In this document: positions 255 to 59,739 of the stretch, in pieces | Numbering within the stretch: position 1 is the first letter of the stretch | Layout: every line of letters begins with the position of its first letter | Source of the DNA: Sedimentibacter sp. MB31-C6 | Lineage (GTDB): Bacteria; Bacillota; Clostridia; Tissierellales; Sedimentibacteraceae | Assembly (NCBI RefSeq): GCF_035934735.1 | Contig: NZ_CP142396.1 | Location: 186,001-250,000, forward strand | Direction of reading: 5' to 3' | DNA length: 64,000 nt | Made by a program: the position numbers and the translations under genes | The notes under the pieces: generated by a model | Told to the model about the DNA's origin: nothing | Databases searched by the model: none | The model's input: only the letters and a program-made list of their open reading frames with translations

Positions 255-1586
255 CTATTTAGCCTTTTTGCGTTTAGTTAAAATTTCTTTTTTTGCAACA
301 CGTATCGTTTCAACCAAAGGTCTCTTTGCTGGACATATAAATGAACAAGATCCACATTCGATACAATCAGTTGCATGAAACTTATCAGCTTCTTCAAAAT
401 TATTTAATATTGCTTGTCTGCTGATCATATATGGCTGTAAATTAACGGGACATATACTTACACATTTTCCACATCTAATACAATTAGATGGTTCTGGAAC
501 TTCTGCATCCTTTTTATTAAGTACAAGTATACCTGAAGTTCCTTTGATAACTGGTACCTCATCAGTATATTGAGCTATTCCCATCATAGGTCCACCGTTA
601 ATTAATTTACCAGGCTCCTCAGAATAACCACCACATTGTTCAATTACATCTTTAAATAATGTTCCAATTCTAATATATAAATTTTTAGGATTTTGTATTG
701 CACTTCCTGTAACTGTTGTTACTCTTTGAATAACGGGCATTCCTGTTGCAATAACATTTCCTATAGTTGCAACAGTCCCTACATTGTCTACTATACAGCC
801 AACATCCATTGGAAGTCCGCCAGAAGGTACTTCTCTGCCAGTTATAGCATTAATAATTCTTTTTTCATCACCTTGTGGATATTTTGTTTCTAGAGATACT
901 ACCTCTATTCCTTCATAATCAGCCACAATTTTCTTCATAACCTCAATTGCATCAGGTTTATTCTTTTCTATAGCAACGTAAGATTTATTCACTCCTACTG
1001 CCTTCATAATTGCTCTTAACCCTAACAATACTAAATCTGGTTTTTCTAGCATTATTCTGTGGTCAGCTGTTAAGAAAGGTTCACATTCTGCTCCATTAAC
1101 TATTATAGTATCAATTGGCTTATCTTTCGGTGGACTTAGTTTTACGTGAGTTGGAAAACCTGCTCCACCCATTCCTGTTAAGCCAGCTTCTTTAATAATT
1201 GCCAAAACTTCTTCCTTAGATAAGTCTTCAAGTTTTCCCTTTGGCCTTACAGATTCGTGAATTTCAAATAAACCATCAGACTCAATAGTAATGCAACTTA
1301 CTTTAGCACCTGTTGTAATTTGATGCACATCAATTTTCTTTACAGTTCCAGATACACTTGAATGTACTGGTGATGAAACAAAAGCTTTAGATTCTCCAAT
1401 CTTTTGTCCTACTTTTACTTTTTCTCCTACTGTAACTAAAGAATCACAGGGGGCTCCTATATGCTGTGATAATGGAATCACAACTATATTAGGTTCTAAA
1501 GCATTTTCAATTGCTACATTCTCAGTTTTCGTTTTATGATGAGGGGGATGTATTCCGCCCCTGAATGTAAACACCTTTGCGCTCAT
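255..1586 (-). CDS. rnfC: RnfC, electron transport complex subunit C
   Basis: Full-length RnfC (443 aa). It is the peripheral subunit that carries the NADH/FMN-binding NuoF-like fold and two [4Fe-4S] clusters. The glycine-rich motif GMGGAGFPTH lies near residue 138. The two cluster motifs are CIRCGKCVSICP (about 369-380) and CIECGSCSFICP (about 408-419). The N-terminal opening FRGGIHPPHHK is typical of the family. It starts the rnf operon visible here; rnfD follows at 12 bases. A GAGGTGAT ribosome site precedes the ATG, and a sigma-A-like promoter lies about 25 bases further up. Confidence 0.97.
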   Translation of the reverse strand: MSAKVFTFRGGIHPPHHKTKTENVAIENALEPNIVVIPLSQHIGAPCDSLVTVGEKVKVGQKIGESKAFVSSPVHSSVSGTVKKIDVHQITTGAKVSCITIESDGLFEIHESVRPKGKLEDLSKEEVLAIIKEAGLTGMGGAGFPTHVKLSPPKDKPIDTIIVNGAECEPFLTADHRIMLEKPDLVLLGLRAIMKAVGVNKSYVAIEKNKPDAIEVMKKIVADYEGIEVVSLETKYPQGDEKRIINAITGREVPSGGLPMDVGCIVDNVGTVATIGNVIATGMPVIQRVTTVTGSAIQNPKNLYIRIGTLFKDVIEQCGGYSEEPGKLINGGPMMGIAQYTDEVPVIKGTSGILVLNKKDAEVPEPSNCIRCGKCVSICPVNLQPYMISRQAILNNFEEADKFHATDCIECGSCSFICPAKRPLVETIRVAKKEILTKRKKAK

Positions 1587-1638: not shown

Positions 1639-1747
1639 ACAAATTGATTATATCAGATTTACATTTATTTTTAAATACCTATTTTAAAATTTTTATCATT
1701 TATTTAATTTTTTTGCAAGGTTTTGTTATAAAATTTCAAATATTATG

Positions 1748-2293
1748 TTAATAATTATATAAATTCTTAATATTTTCATTAATATATTCTTTAATCCAAA
1801 GTAATACACTGCTTTCGTTTATATCAACATTTTCTAATATTTCTTTAATTTCAGTTGTACTTACTGAAAATGTTAACATATCTACCTTATGTTTATATAT
1901 TAACTCACAATCTACTAAAGAATTAATAATTGTCATAATTGTATCACCAATATTTCCCAAAGGTGCTCTATCAATATTACTTCTTTCAAAGCAGCATTCT
2001 ACCTTTGTTCCCTTTCCAATTGTAGAATCAATTGTTAAATTTCCGTTACATCTTTCACAAGCCTCTTTTAACATAGGAAGCCCTAAACCTACTTTTCTGG
2101 TTTTCCGTGTTGTATAAAAAGGATTTGTTACTTGATTTAGAATTTCTTTACTCATACCATTACCATTGTCATTAATTATAATTTTTAAAACATCATCCTT
2201 TATACTGTCCATTATTTCTATTTCAATTAATGACGCATTGGCTTTTACACTATTCATAGCAATATCTAATATATGCATGGACAATTCCTTCAT
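1748..2293 (-). CDS. HATPase_c domain ATP-binding protein of the hydrogenase-like sensor cluster
   Basis: A 181-aa soluble protein with the GHKL ATPase fold. The N box is seen in MHILDIAMNSVKANA, the G1 box as DNGNGMS and the G2 box as GLGLPMLKEA. There is no sensor, HAMP or phospho-acceptor His domain, so it is not a classical kinase; it resembles the stand-alone ATP-binding proteins found beside iron-hydrogenase genes in Clostridia. The C-terminal 70 residues match nothing I know. It is the last gene of the cluster, separated from the PHP gene by a hairpin, and has its own AGGAGG-like site. Partner and substrate are unknown; a role in phosphorylation or binding within the sensor cluster is inference. 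Confidence 0.75.
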   Translation of the reverse strand: MKELSMHILDIAMNSVKANASLIEIEIMDSIKDDVLKIIINDNGNGMSKEILNQVTNPFYTTRKTRKVGLGLPMLKEACERCNGNLTIDSTIGKGTKVECCFERSNIDRAPLGNIGDTIMTIINSLVDCELIYKHKVDMLTFSVSTTEIKEILENVDINESSVLLWIKEYINENIKNLYNY

Positions 2294-2320
2294 ACTAACC
2301 TCCTAGCAGGCATTAAATAA

Positions 2321-2341
2321 AAAGTCGCATAATGCGACTTT
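2321..2341 (-). terminator. Hairpin terminator/attenuator after the PHP gene
   Basis: A perfect 10-bp inverted repeat (AAAGTCGCAT / ATGCGACTTT, 1-base gap) begins within the stop codon of the PHP gene. On the minus strand it is followed by TTATTT. It lies between two genes of the same cluster, so it may lower expression of the last HATPase gene rather than end the transcript fully. Confidence 0.6.
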
Positions 2342-3032
2342 AATATATCTTTAAATATCTATAGACATCCTCTATTGAATCTAAATTCATAAAATTTTCG
2401 GGTTCAGATATATCTACTAACTGATGTGCATCCGAATTTACTAATTTTATATATTTTTTTAATTGTTTATCCTTTATCTCTTCATTTGAAGTAACTTCAA
2501 TAAAATTCAATTCTAAATCGATAGGTATAAATCCTAATACACCTAATATACCATTTGATTTTTTATATACATGTGCAGGAACAGTAATTCCGTGATATCT
2601 CTTTGATAAATAATAAATATCTTCTACAGAATAACTTGTTGCATTTATTAAAAGTTTATCTAATTCTCCAATTTTTTCTTCATTATGATTGTAAATATTT
2701 TGTTCTCCAAAAATTTTAGTATTATTTTTAATATTTGGTAACGAATCATATATTACATTGCCAAATGCCAAGGCGTCATCAAGAGCTTTAAAATAACATA
2801 ATATATGAACTTCTTCTTTGGTTGTTACTTCTATTCCAGGAATTACCTTTATGCCCATTTTTTTTCCTAAAAATGCAATAGCTGATAAATTCTTAGTTGT
2901 ATTATGATCAGTAATAGAAATGATATTCAAACCTTTTATATAGGACATATTAATAATATTATTGGGCGTCATATCACTATTTCCACATGGAGATAAATCA
3001 GAATGAATATGCAAATCATAATAAAATTTCAT
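2340..3032 (-). CDS. PHP domain metal-dependent phosphoesterase
   Basis: A 230-aa protein of the PHP family (polymerase and histidinol phosphatase-like). Metal-binding motifs are visible: DLHIHSDLSPCG at the N-terminus, ITDHNTTKN near residue 40, an H in the middle (VPAHVYK) and NSDAH near residue 200. The length fits a single-domain PHP phosphoesterase. It overlaps the preceding DRTGG gene by 4 bases (ATGA), so the two are translationally coupled. In related Clostridia, PHP genes sit in this same cluster beside hydrogenase-like and DRTGG genes. Its substrate is unknown; a small phosphorylated or nucleotide signal is a guess. Confidence 0.85.
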   Translation of the reverse strand: MKFYYDLHIHSDLSPCGNSDMTPNNIINMSYIKGLNIISITDHNTTKNLSAIAFLGKKMGIKVIPGIEVTTKEEVHILCYFKALDDALAFGNVIYDSLPNIKNNTKIFGEQNIYNHNEEKIGELDKLLINATSYSVEDIYYLSKRYHGITVPAHVYKKSNGILGVLGFIPIDLELNFIEVTSNEEIKDKQLKKYIKLVNSDAHQLVDISEPENFMNLDSIEDVYRYLKIY

Positions 3033-3361
3033 TTTATACCCATGGTGTGCAATCTACAAGCCACTTGATATGCACTATCCTTAGTTTTGAATATCGGTAT
3101 ATCTAATTCTTTTGCTTTATTTAAAGTTTCATCTTCAATTTCCATACCTTCAACAATAATTATGCATGATAAATCTAAGAGTTCTGCAATAGCTACAATA
3201 TTGACATGAGTTTGTATTGTAATCCAAAGGAAATTTTCTTTCGCCTTTGACATAGCAATACTTAATAAATCTCCAATATAAACACCTTCAATTTGTATTT
3301 CTTTATTTGTAACTAATAATGGTTCTAATTTTAAATTACTAGCTAAATCCAAATTCTTCAT
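3029..3361 (-). CDS. DRTGG domain protein (second copy in cluster)
   Basis: About 110 aa, made of a single DRTGG-type regulatory domain. This is the domain found in phosphotransacetylases and CBS-pyrophosphatases, where it binds adenine nucleotides or helps oligomerise. Visible features are the alternating hydrophobic strands with YIGDLLSIAMS and CIIIVEGMEI. An in-frame TTG lies 12 bases upstream, but the ATG at 3361 is preferred because GGAGGGG lies directly before it. It is a paralogue of the DRTGG gene at the head of the cluster, and sits between the hydrogenase-like and PHP genes, overlapping the latter. Confidence 0.75.
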   Translation of the reverse strand: MKNLDLASNLKLEPLLVTNKEIQIEGVYIGDLLSIAMSKAKENFLWITIQTHVNIVAIAELLDLSCIIIVEGMEIEDETLNKAKELDIPIFKTKDSAYQVACRLHTMGIK

Positions 3362-3387
3362 ATACCCCTCCAATATATTTAATCACT

Positions 3388-4623
3388 TCATGAATTAGCT
3401 CTTAAAACAACACATTCAAATATAGTCGATTGACCATTGTAAATGTCTTCTGCATGAGAGAGACAAGTAGGCGACCCACAAGATCCACAATCTAAGCCAG
3501 GGAGTATTGCCAATATTTGTTTAATTTCCTCATTCTTTTTTAATGCTTCTTTTATATTAATTTTATTTACACTTTCAGTATCCGGAAATTCAAATTCAAA
3601 AAACCCTTTATTGTATAACTTTTCAAAACATTCTAAATCAGAATTAATTGGTTCTCCATCTAATGTATTTAATATATACTTATTATTACTGCTTGCTATA
3701 AATGGATTTATAACATTAAAAGTTCCACCTACACAACCTTGAACACAGGCCAATACCTCAACATAATCAACTCCTGACAACTTGCCATTTTCTATTTCTT
3801 CTAATATCTGTATTACATTTTCCATTCCATTTACAGCAATAAAGTTTGTCAATTTAGCAGATTTTGATTGTCCGCCACACACTGACCACTTTAAGCCACT
3901 TAAAGATGGATAAGAGCAAATTAAATTGTCTTCCTTTACAACTTTTTGATATAATTCCCCATAAATTTTATTAAGAGGTATTACCCAATCAACAGAAGGT
4001 CCAAGATTTCCTATAGGATCAGTAACTGCTAACAATTTAGCTGGACATGGAGTAATATAAAACACGCCTATATCCTTATCTTCTAAGTTAAACTTCTTTC
4101 TAGCGTTATTTCTTGCTAGAATACCTGCAATTTCCATAGGTGTCTTCAATGCAATTAAATTTTCTGTTAAAGATGGATATCTTATATTTATAAGCCTTAA
4201 TGTAGCTGGACAATTAGTGTTTATAAATGGTCTGATGTCTTTGTTATTATCTATTTTTTTCTTTATTGCCTTAGCAACTAGTTCTGCAGCCCAACTTTCA
4301 TCATATACATAATCGAATCCAAGTTTTAAAATTGCATTCTGTACTACACATATATCAGTTCCTCTCGGAAACTGACCATAAATAGTAGTAGATGGTATAG
4401 CAATTTTACATTTATAAGCATTCGTTTCATTTTTCCACTCAATACATTCAGGAGAATATGCTCCATATGAACACGCTCTTATACATTCTCCACAATGTAT
4501 ACATTTTTTATGATCAATTATAGCTTTACCATTCTTTATTCTAATCGCCTGTGTAGGACACTTTTTCATACAGTTAGTGCATCCCCTACATTTTTCTTTA
4601 TCAAACATAATAGAAAAATTCAT
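3388..4623 (-). CDS. [FeFe]-hydrogenase-like iron-sulfur protein, likely redox/H2 sensor
   Basis: 411 aa with three parts. First come two 2[4Fe-4S] ferredoxin motifs (Cys12, 15, 18, 22 and Cys41, 44, 47, 51). Second is an iron-hydrogenase large-domain core. Third is a C-terminal Fe-S motif, LPGLDCGSCGSPTC, of the kind also found in RnfB and corrinoid proteins. In the H-cluster region the L1 motif reads NTNCPA instead of TSCCP, L2 reads TPCPAK and L3 reads ACVQGCVGG. All four cluster-ligand cysteines can be placed, but the proton-relay cysteine of catalytic enzymes is replaced by Asn. This argues for a sensory or alternative role rather than fast H2 turnover. It is flanked by HATPase and DRTGG genes 12-26 bases away. 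Confidence 0.8.
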   Translation of the reverse strand: MNFSIMFDKEKCRGCTNCMKKCPTQAIRIKNGKAIIDHKKCIHCGECIRACSYGAYSPECIEWKNETNAYKCKIAIPSTTIYGQFPRGTDICVVQNAILKLGFDYVYDESWAAELVAKAIKKKIDNNKDIRPFINTNCPATLRLINIRYPSLTENLIALKTPMEIAGILARNNARKKFNLEDKDIGVFYITPCPAKLLAVTDPIGNLGPSVDWVIPLNKIYGELYQKVVKEDNLICSYPSLSGLKWSVCGGQSKSAKLTNFIAVNGMENVIQILEEIENGKLSGVDYVEVLACVQGCVGGTFNVINPFIASSNNKYILNTLDGEPINSDLECFEKLYNKGFFEFEFPDTESVNKINIKEALKKNEEIKQILAILPGLDCGSCGSPTCLSHAEDIYNGQSTIFECVVLRANS

Positions 4624-4635
4624 TTGTCAATCCCC

Positions 4636-5061
4636 CTATATAAATATCGTCAATTCTATTAAAGTGCCATTTTTATCCGATATTATTTTAAATATATCAG
4701 AGTATTTTTTCATATTAGGTAGTCCCATTCCAGCTCCAAAGCCTAGCTCTCTTACCTTATCAGTTGCTGTTGAATAACCTTCAGTCATTGCTAATTCAAC
4801 ATTGTCAATTCCTGGCCCTATATCCTTCGATATTATTATAATTTTATCTTCATATAAGTCACAATAGATTTTTCCCCCTAAAGAATGAATAACAAGATTG
4901 ATTTCTGCTTCATAAAAAACTATTGCAATTTTCCTGATAACTTTAGAATCAATACCTAATGATTTTAAATTACTTTTAATATAACTTGAACTTTTGCCTG
5001 CAGTAATAAAATCATTAGAAGTTATCTCAAAACTAAATCTTTTTAATAAGTCGTTTGCCAT
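4636..5061 (-). CDS. RsbW/RsbT-like ATP-binding anti-sigma-type protein
   Basis: 141 aa, a small GHKL ATPase of the serine/threonine kinase anti-sigma class. The ATP-binding boxes are seen as FYEAEINLVIHS, SKDIGPGIDN and LGFGAGMGLPNMKK. Proteins of this size act on sigma or anti-anti-sigma factors, but no STAS partner is encoded nearby, so the target is unknown. It overlaps the 3' end of the upstream DRTGG gene by 19 bases and precedes the hydrogenase-like gene by 12 bases, which points to one transcript and probably one complex. It differs from the other HATPase gene of the cluster, which is longer. Confidence 0.8.
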   Translation of the reverse strand: MANDLLKRFSFEITSNDFITAGKSSSYIKSNLKSLGIDSKVIRKIAIVFYEAEINLVIHSLGGKIYCDLYEDKIIIISKDIGPGIDNVELAMTEGYSTATDKVRELGFGAGMGLPNMKKYSDIFKIISDKNGTLIELTIFI

Positions 5062-5405
5062 TTCCGATTTCCCTTCATGCCGTTTTTATATAATAACCCG
5101 CATGTTTCGAACATAATATTATCAGTAGCAAGTATAGTTAAAGAATTTTCAACAGCTAAATCAATTATATCTGAATTTGGTACTTTTCCTCGTACAAAAA
5201 GCACGGCAGATATATCCATTATTTCAGCAGTTCTAATCACCTGAGGATTACTTAAACCAGTAATAAGCAAAGTTTCATCATTTGCATAGGCTAATACATC
5301 ACTCATTAAGTCACTGGCAAAAGCATACTCAAATTCTTTCTCTTCATTACAAAATTCAGTTAAAACTTTCGCATTAACAATTTCAATGATTTCTTTGATT
5401 TTCAT
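5043..5405 (-). CDS. DRTGG domain protein (first gene of the sensor cluster)
   Basis: About 120 aa, a stand-alone DRTGG regulatory domain (FASDLMSDVLAY, LLITGLSNPQVIRTAEIMDISAVLFV). Such domains bind nucleotides or mediate dimerisation in larger enzymes; here it is alone. An upstream in-frame TTG exists, but the ATG at 5405 lies at normal spacing after TGGGGGA and is preferred. It heads the cluster, with a good promoter about 170 bases upstream, and its 3' end overlaps the RsbW-like gene. It is clearly related to the second DRTGG protein at 3.0-3.4 kb. Confidence 0.75.
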   Translation of the reverse strand: MKIKEIIEIVNAKVLTEFCNEEKEFEYAFASDLMSDVLAYANDETLLITGLSNPQVIRTAEIMDISAVLFVRGKVPNSDIIDLAVENSLTILATDNIMFETCGLLYKNGMKGNRKWQTTY

Positions 5406-28878: not shown

Positions 28879-28976
28879 TGGCGGGAATATGTGGGAATCG
28901 AACCCACCCAGGACGCTCTAAACGCCCCACATCTGATTTTGAAGACCAGGAGGCACACCAGCACCCATCTATCCCC
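28879..28976 (-). tRNA. selC: tRNA-Sec (anticodon TCA)
   Basis: A 98-base tRNA on the minus strand with encoded CCA. Features are an acceptor stem starting GGGGATA and ending TATTCCCG-CCA, the anticodon arm CTGGT-CTTCAAA-ATCAG (TCA at 28940-28942), a large variable arm (GGGGCG...CGTCC) and the T loop GGTTCGATTCC. Length, long acceptor/variable arms and anticodon identify selenocysteine tRNA. It lies downstream of selB with one response regulator between, and reads UGA in selD. Confidence 0.96.
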
Positions 28977-59550: not shown

Positions 59551-59739
59551 GAGTTGCTTCGCAACTCCGCTAGGGGGACCTATGTCCCCCTTCGGCGTAA
59601 AAATGCTTTATTAATGCATTTTTACTGAGCACCCCCCTTAACGGCAAGGACGTTCCGTCCTTTGCAATCCTCGTTTTTTATTATATAGGAAAGGATAACT
59701 TTCCTATATAATAAAAAAGCGGTAGCAATAATCAACCGC
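59551..59739 (-). other. Array of six perfect hairpins between iscU and alaS
   Basis: This fills the 302-base gap between alaS and iscU. From left: GAGTTGC-TTC-GCAACTC (59551-59567), GGGGGAC-CTAT-GTCCCCC (59573-59590), GTAAAAATGC with complement (59597-59625), AAGGACG-TTC-CGTCCTT (59646-59662), a 20-bp perfect repeat with 5-base loop (59674-59718) and GCGGT/ACCGC (59719-59739). On the minus strand the last-named ends in TTTTTT and can end the isc operon; the first ends in TTTTTATT and is a terminator too. The stretch between may be a short structured RNA or a decayed mobile repeat. GC content is far above the surroundings. Confidence 0.7.

Follow-up and report, generated by a model that had tools for sequence, protein, structure and literature searches.

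A conserved six-gene cassette around a group D [FeFe]-hydrogenase-like protein, located directly upstream of rnf in Sedimentibacter sp. MB31-C6

The stretch of DNA analysed here (the window) comprises 64,000 nucleotides of Sedimentibacter sp. MB31-C6 (assembly GCF_035934735.1, contig NZ_CP142396.1, positions 186,001 to 250,000 of the forward strand). Six genes at its positions 1748–5405, encoding two DRTGG-domain proteins (DRTGG1 and DRTGG2), two ATPases (HATP1 and HATP2), a PHP phosphoesterase (PHP) and an [FeFe]-hydrogenase-like iron-sulfur protein (HydL), form one conserved cassette, which usually stands beside the genes of the bifurcating hydrogenase HydABC and here directly precedes rnf. 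An earlier reading made from the sequence only had singled them out as its best candidate for an undescribed system. HydL belongs to the already described group D of hydrogenases, but no account of the six-gene cassette was found in the openly licensed literature. We consider the evidence about evenly balanced as to whether the cassette is sensory-regulatory, that is, a redox-sensing kinase system tuning the neighbouring HydABC or Rnf.

Gene order, co-occurrence and fusions

All six open reading frames (ORFs; ATG starts read) are intact, close-packed and on the minus strand, and together they span exactly 1748–5405. They are arranged as DRTGG1 (5043..5405, 120 amino acids), HATP1 (4636..5061, 141 amino acids), HydL (3388..4623, 411 amino acids), DRTGG2 (3029..3361, 110 amino acids), PHP (2340..3032, 230 amino acids) and HATP2 (1748..2293, 181 amino acids). 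DRTGG1 and HATP1 overlap by 19 nt and DRTGG2 and PHP by 4 nt, and the remaining gaps measure 12, 26 and 46 nt. The first gene of rnfCDGEAB, rnfC (255..1586, minus strand), starts 161 nt beyond the end of HATP2; it is a neighbour and possible target, outside the cassette. The packing and the position beside Rnf described in the sequence-only reading are thus confirmed, and the families that it named are borne out by profile matches: PF07085 matched twice (E 6.7e-8 and 9.9e-7), PF02811 matched PHP (E 1e-7), PF02518 matched HATP2 (E 6.8e-16) and PF02906 matched HydL (E 4.6e-28), while HATP1, just below the Pfam cut-off (25.5 vs 26.4 bits), matched the NCBIfam SpoIIAB model with E 2.6e-10. The nearest named records of the window HydL are from Sedimentibacter and relatives, at 61–67% identity.

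Co-occurrence was determined by profile searches of 398 genomes, sampled once from the phylum, for HydL (E <1e-80), PHP (E 1e-40 or better) and DRTGG1 (E 1e-15 or better), which gave matches in 157, 155 and 169 genomes, respectively. PHP was present in 147 and DRTGG1 in 153 of the 157 genomes with HydL; all three were found in 146 genomes and none of them in 223. The HydL count leaves out 31 genomes with weaker matches, some of which carry a split or divergent HydL (L116, L117, L119; L, G and f numbers are our handles for loci, genomes and family codes). Selenocysteine was rejected for the split HydL of L116 and L117, where the breaks are frameshifts.

Gene context was compared in 60 HydL loci from 49 family codes, hand-picked among the matches listed, counting as partners only genes within 9 kb of HydL that share its strand. 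HATP1 and DRTGG2 each accompanied HydL in 56 of these loci, HATP2 in 52, PHP in 49 and DRTGG1 in 48. All five partners were present in 41 loci and at least four in 51, and of the full set of 125 HydL loci for which context was available, 93 had all five. In the neighbour test proposed with the sequence-only reading, the genes therefore co-travel. In 50/60 loci, hydA or hydB is found near HydL. The set is nevertheless not strictly inseparable, as it also occurs split or without HydL. The most frequent arrangement is DRTGG1-HATP1-HydL-DRTGG2-PHP-hydC-HATP2-2Fe2S-hydB-hydA. The six-gene order of the window recurs identically upstream of rnfCDGEAB in L007–L011 and L013, and upstream of hydB-hydA-hydC in one metagenome-assembled genome of the Bacteroidales (L012).

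Open-frame fusions join DRTGG1 to HATP1 in seven loci (L063, L064, L075, L076, L101, L102, L135), HATP1 to HydL in one (L100), HydL to DRTGG2 in two (L056, L131) and PHP to HATP2 in six loci of one family code (L049, L125–L129). As the fused pairs are neighbours in the gene order, the fusions back contact between their products, short of proof. Other variants were seen as well. Beside hydB and hydC in L125–L129 are hydA-like ORFs of approximately 311–358 amino acids, whose match to the scored hydA profile region is confined to roughly its first 215 residues and which stand two in a row in L126–L129. ORFs downstream of HATP1-HydL in L071 (11947-14532, 861 amino acids) and L104 (12000-14732, 910 amino acids) have a HATP2-profile match spread over almost their whole length, and in L115 (G037) a frameshifted, decayed cassette adjoins intact hydABC and rnfC.

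The gap between PHP and HATP2 contains a terminator-like hairpin (2321..2341, minus strand), and a hairpin is present in this gap in 7/7 Sedimentibacter-type loci, some differing in sequence. Upstream of rnfC lies a promoter-like element (1647..1675, minus strand) with a -10-like box that is likewise conserved in 7/7 of these loci. Given these two signals, one transcript spanning all six genes and rnf is improbable. A loose pattern for Rex-like sites had no match within the initial 8000 bases of the window, and no such site was conserved in the relatives. The rnf neighbourhood might be inherited synteny without function, the cassette having landed between the mre/min cluster and rnf. The promoter-like box of rnf is consistent with this, as are the mreBCD cluster that flanks the window cassette on the side opposite rnf, the HydL-less cassettes near mreBCD in L109–L111 and the derivation of 7 of 18 rnf-adjacent, hydA-less HydL rows from one related group. 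We consider this explanation unlikely, because adjacency to rnf recurs in f50, f100, f160, f169 and f182 and, without HydL, in f92, and because 11 of the 60 HydL loci have rnfC downstream in the same orientation. Adjacent hyd and rnf clusters have been reported for Tepidanaerobacter acetatoxydans (PMC4374699). Beyond rnfC, the window genome (L006) has rnfDGEAB, then pncA and nadV, and then a convergent hydC-hydB-hydA. The window also contains a tRNA-Sec gene and a Clostridiales-2 RNA, at 28883-28976 and 59585-59679.

Predicted components of the cassette, with and without HydL

HATP1 has the Bergerat fold with the N, G1 and G2 boxes of a SpoIIAB-type kinase, and its Glu51, Asn55, His59, Asp80 and GxGxGxG box are invariant in 63 rows of this SpoIIAB/RsbW-like ATPase. 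The metal ligands of PHP (H8, H10, D42, H43, E68, H76, H154, D201 and H203) are kept at 98–100% of 57 rows. Ser35 and Thr49 are invariant in 50 rows of DRTGG1, and Asp31, Ser34, Thr48 and Asn54 in 63 rows of its paralogue DRTGG2; from this conservation alone we propose Ser35/Thr49 and Ser34/Thr48, respectively, as candidate phospho-acceptors. HATP2 is a GHKL ATPase with a C-terminal domain, in which N14, D42, G44, G46, F59, G69 and G71 are kept (59 rows). Its identity as a histidine kinase was rejected, as no dimerisation domain with a phospho-accepting histidine was matched (the GHKL domain begins at residue 8 of 181) and its model is closest to MutL; its best NCBIfam sequence matches are histidine kinases, and some kinship remains. 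Of the parts of a switch named in the sequence-only reading, the SpoIIAB-like kinase site, the PHP metal site and the Fe-S sites are therefore intact, but HATP2 is MutL-like and not a whole histidine kinase.

The structure models represent homologous natural fusions from other species and not the window proteins. Their domains are confident (predicted local distance difference test 92.1 and 90.6), but the mutual placement of these domains is loose (predicted template modelling score 0.70 and 0.58), which leaves domain contacts unfixed. The HATP1 homologue resembles SpoIIAB (1til; Z 18.5, root mean square deviation 1.9, 132 residues aligned), the DRTGG1 homologue AF1212 (2ioj; Z 17.5, 1.8, 111 residues) and the PHP homologue EndoQ (5zb8; Z 24.4, 2.5, 218 residues), while the HATP2 homologue matches MutL (1bkn and 9n2k) and topoisomerase VI-B best, both at Z 13.3. 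Neither a STAS partner nor a sigma factor was found among the six genes or their annotated neighbours, the genome outside not having been searched for STAS.

GHKL ATPases, Hsp90 and MutL among them, perform mechanical work, and many loci have HATP2 placed between hydC and hydB. Both points would agree with a role of the cassette in assembling or repairing Fe-S or flavin complexes such as HydABC and Rnf, with the ATPases as chaperones and HydL as a scaffold. We regard such a role as quite improbable: HydABC and Rnf are also encoded where the cassette is missing, the hydCBA of the window genome has no cassette gene inside, and HydL-less cassettes stand beside unrelated genes.

Five-gene cassettes without HydL are found in L105, L106, L108, L109 and L110. 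CBS domains are present on HATP1 in 7/8 HydL-less loci having HATP1, the exception being L113, and occur together with HydL in L057, L082 and L139. As HATP1 carries CBS domains where HydL is missing, we read it as the input node, which would be fed by HydL or by CBS. Both a HydL locus and a HydL-less cassette are present in G304 and G387. In L107 and L138, DRTGG1-HATP1-2Fe2S lies upstream of rnfC. The genes are split in L111 and L112, where a DRTGG1-DRTGG2-PHP-HATP2 block is separate from HATP1-HydL. The HydL-less cassettes of L109–L111 are located beside cell-shape genes, of which maf, mreBCD and pbp2 were named by scan in L109. Molybdenum hydroxylase neighbours of a HydL-less cassette were rejected, since Pfam gave MreB, MreC, MreD, PBP2 and cell-wall hydrolases.

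HydL, residue 252 and hydrogen chemistry

HydL contains two N-terminal 4Fe-4S motifs, an H-domain, a PF04060 match (E 3e-10) and a C-terminal Cx2Cx4Cx16C motif (cysteines 379, 382, 387 and 404); no PAS domain was matched in it up to E 1. Every one of the 16 Fe-S cysteines, including the H-cluster ligands Cys138, 193, 293 and 297, is conserved in 121/121 full HydL rows. The group-A Cys299 is replaced, and the window HydL has Asn at position 137 and has kept Lys196, which we take to be the partner of the [2Fe] cyanide (CpI Lys358). HydL thus has the architecture and H-cluster ligands of group D (M2e). The marks of this group were taken from papers on TamHydS of Thermoanaerobacter mathranii (PMC8163306, PMC10407848, PMC13104023), and the group is called putatively sensory (PMC8163306, PMC10407848).

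The proton path of group D comprises Glu252, Glu289, Ser249 and Asp265, numbered as quoted in PMC10407848 and located in an alignment made without the TamHydS sequence itself. Only Glu289 is kept in the window, the other positions being Gln252 (codon CAA, 3868..3870, minus strand), Cys249 and Asn265, and Gln252 is shared by six relatives. Glu252 is the proton relay of group D, and TamHydS variants E252V/D have <0.01% of H2 oxidation and 10–20% of H2 evolution left (PMC10407848). The redox/H2-sensing cluster of the sequence-only reading hence stands as far as the Fe-S sites are concerned, but H2 sensing in this lineage appears doubtful in view of the exchanges Glu252 to Gln and Asp265 to Asn.

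Of the 125 HydL loci, 91 have Glu at position 252, 31 have Gln and two have Asp, with a gap in the remaining one. The 108 informative loci divide into Glu with hydA (67), Glu without (14), Gln with hydA (two), Gln without (23) and Asp with hydA (two); hydA is accordingly not near in 23/25 HydL with Gln252 vs 14/81 with Glu252. Where rnfC but not hydA is near, Gln252 is found in 15/18 HydL, seven of these 15 belonging to the Sedimentibacter-type group, and where both are near it is found in 0/9. Lys196 is kept in 90/91 Glu252 rows, and Arg or Gln replaces it in 19/31 Gln252 rows. In L190, L195–L197 and L199 of f160, hydC-HATP2-2Fe2S-hydB lies directly upstream of rnfC with hydA absent between, a gene set that we read as a hydrogenase-less HydBC-like unit coupled to Rnf.

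Family f39 is the strongest single case for HydL without H2 chemistry. Its genomes G173 and G223 (99% complete), G295 (91%) and G379 (84%) have HydL as their single Fe-hydrogenase match, with both Gln252 and Gln196, and no HydF or HydG over cut-off. In L055 and L203–L205 of this family the cassette is isolated, the nearest hydC or 2Fe2S genes being approximately 7 kb upstream on the other strand; G108 and G247, which are f39 genomes without HydL, do have HydG.

The loss of Glu252 to Gln, the frequent Arg or Gln at position 196 and the existence of one family in which no other Fe-hydrogenase, HydF or HydG was found lead us to suggest, tentatively, that the rnf-linked, hydA-less HydL may be a post-hydrogenase sensor. 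It would have given up H2 chemistry, kept its [4Fe-4S] sites and would report the ferredoxin redox state to the SpoIIAB-like kinase controlling Rnf. Several results speak against this suggestion. Parsimony on a quick tree gave at least four changes (Asp counted as changed), and an independent-pairs test of Gln252 against absent hydA was not significant and, with at most four pairs, cannot become so; the link rests on few independent events. Fisher's p, computed for this link and for the co-occurrence of HydL, PHP and DRTGG1, carries no correction for kinship. No HydG match (E 1e-90 or better) was obtained in 46 of the 157 HydL genomes, 26 of which are at least 95% complete. Of 12 HydG-less genomes with fetched loci, ten keep Glu252 and four have an intact-motif hydA beside the cassette. 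The absence of HydG alone is therefore weak evidence for a missing H-cluster, and lost H-cluster maturation was rejected as a clean predictor of Gln252. Finally, the genome of the window encodes both HydF and HydG and carries four Fe-hydrogenase genes besides HydL, so that the window HydL could receive an H-cluster.

These genes would also suit a HydL that is an ordinary group D H2 sensor here too, with a full H-cluster, another route in place of Glu252 and a cassette that reports H2. The four H-cluster cysteines, Lys196 and Glu289 of the window HydL fit such a sensor, hydA adjoins two Gln252 rows, and Glu252 is kept in 3/18 rnf-adjacent, hydA-less HydL. We nevertheless find it rather doubtful, given that residues 252 and 265 are both amides here, that E252V/D nearly abolishes H2 oxidation by TamHydS (PMC10407848) and that Gln252 accompanies absent hydA.

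Genes of the hydA type without a HydG match were noted in G337, G024, G063, G275, G448, G499, G520 and G541, with motifs read as intact in G337, G024, G063, G275 and G520. Likewise, five f162 genomes have no HydF or HydG over cut-off, though four of them have a strong hydA-type match, and the hydA motifs of L201 (f162) were read as intact. For the eight genomes named, another maturation route, a divergent HydG or missing sequence are candidate explanations.

Proposed mechanism and comparison with known systems

In the sensory-regulatory reading of the cassette, HydL would use its [4Fe-4S] clusters to sense the redox state of the pool of low-potential electrons and, in HydABC-linked relatives, possibly H2 as well. 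Its state would be passed to HATP1, the SpoIIAB-like kinase, which would phosphorylate or bind the DRTGG proteins as SpoIIAB does with SpoIIAA. PHP may undo this modification or clear away a nucleotide signal, HATP2 could be an ATP-driven clamp on the output, and the output would tune the electron machinery encoded next to the cassette, which is HydABC in most genomes and Rnf here. The gene set and order, co-occurrence, fusions, intact catalytic motifs, homologue folds and loss of proton-relay residues were computed; the signal, phosphorylation, direction and target we infer.

A number of observations count against this mechanism. The cassette contains no DNA-binding or sigma gene, rnf has its own conserved promoter-like box, and a terminator-like hairpin precedes HATP2. 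HydL-less cassettes adjoin cell-wall genes, not redox genes. The fusions unite adjacent genes and are favoured by operon adjacency alone, those seen in a single locus are possibly assembly errors, and the fusion models place their domains loosely. TamHydS is the sole protein of these kinds with experiments.

How anaerobes choose among H2, ethanol and an ion gradient has long been asked, and the signal relay from group D sensory hydrogenases is called open in PMC8163306. The cassette names likely relay partners, namely a kinase, a DRTGG pair, PHP and a GHKL ATPase, and its natural fusions are ready-made constructs. Moreover, an H2-competent sensor beside HydABC vs an apparently H2-incompetent one beside Rnf vs CBS domains replacing the sensor constitute a natural experiment, which bears on Rnf, the power source of many acetogens and amino-acid fermenters.

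TamHydS and the window HydL are alike in their two 4Fe-4S motifs, H-domain, C-terminal Cx2Cx4Cx16C and lack of PAS, as well as in the lost C299 position, Leu291, Ser/Thr191 and the usual place near a bifurcating hydrogenase (PMC8163306). Unlike TamHydS, the window HydL has Gln252 and Asn265 for the proton-relay Glu and Asp and precedes rnf, and the part of PMC8163306 that describes the gene neighbours of TamHydS gives an ATPase and an AraC regulator, not the six-gene set. The pairs SpoIIAB/SpoIIAA and RsbW/RsbV share with the cassette the SpoIIAB fold of HATP1, the E-N-H and glycine boxes, and the translational coupling or fusion of HATP1 to a small partner. In the cassette, however, this partner is DRTGG and not STAS, there is no sigma factor and phosphorylation is only predicted. 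The DRTGG fold is also found in the CBS-DRTGG region of pyrophosphatases and the N-terminal domain of HPr kinase; CBS accompanies DRTGG there and is located on HATP1 in HydL-less cassettes, whereas the DRTGG proteins of the cassette are stand-alone, without a pyrophosphatase or HPr kinase domain.

Group C hydrogenases (HydS/HfsB) likewise combine a hydrogenase-like sensor with kinase- or phosphatase-like genes, but they have PAS and a serine phosphatase in place of the DRTGG, PHP and two GHKL ATPases of the cassette, and are encoded here at a separate locus. This locus (L004, G000:C1:1171627-1175307) contains a putative group C sensory hydrogenase of 571 amino acids, recognised by eye, preceded by a 2Fe-2S protein and followed by a SpoIIE-like phosphatase gene. 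Deletion of hfsB in Thermoanaerobacterium saccharolyticum raised ethanol yield and hydrogenase activity (PMC5707799; see also PMC11837493), and group C provides a precedent for regulation by a hydrogenase-like protein.

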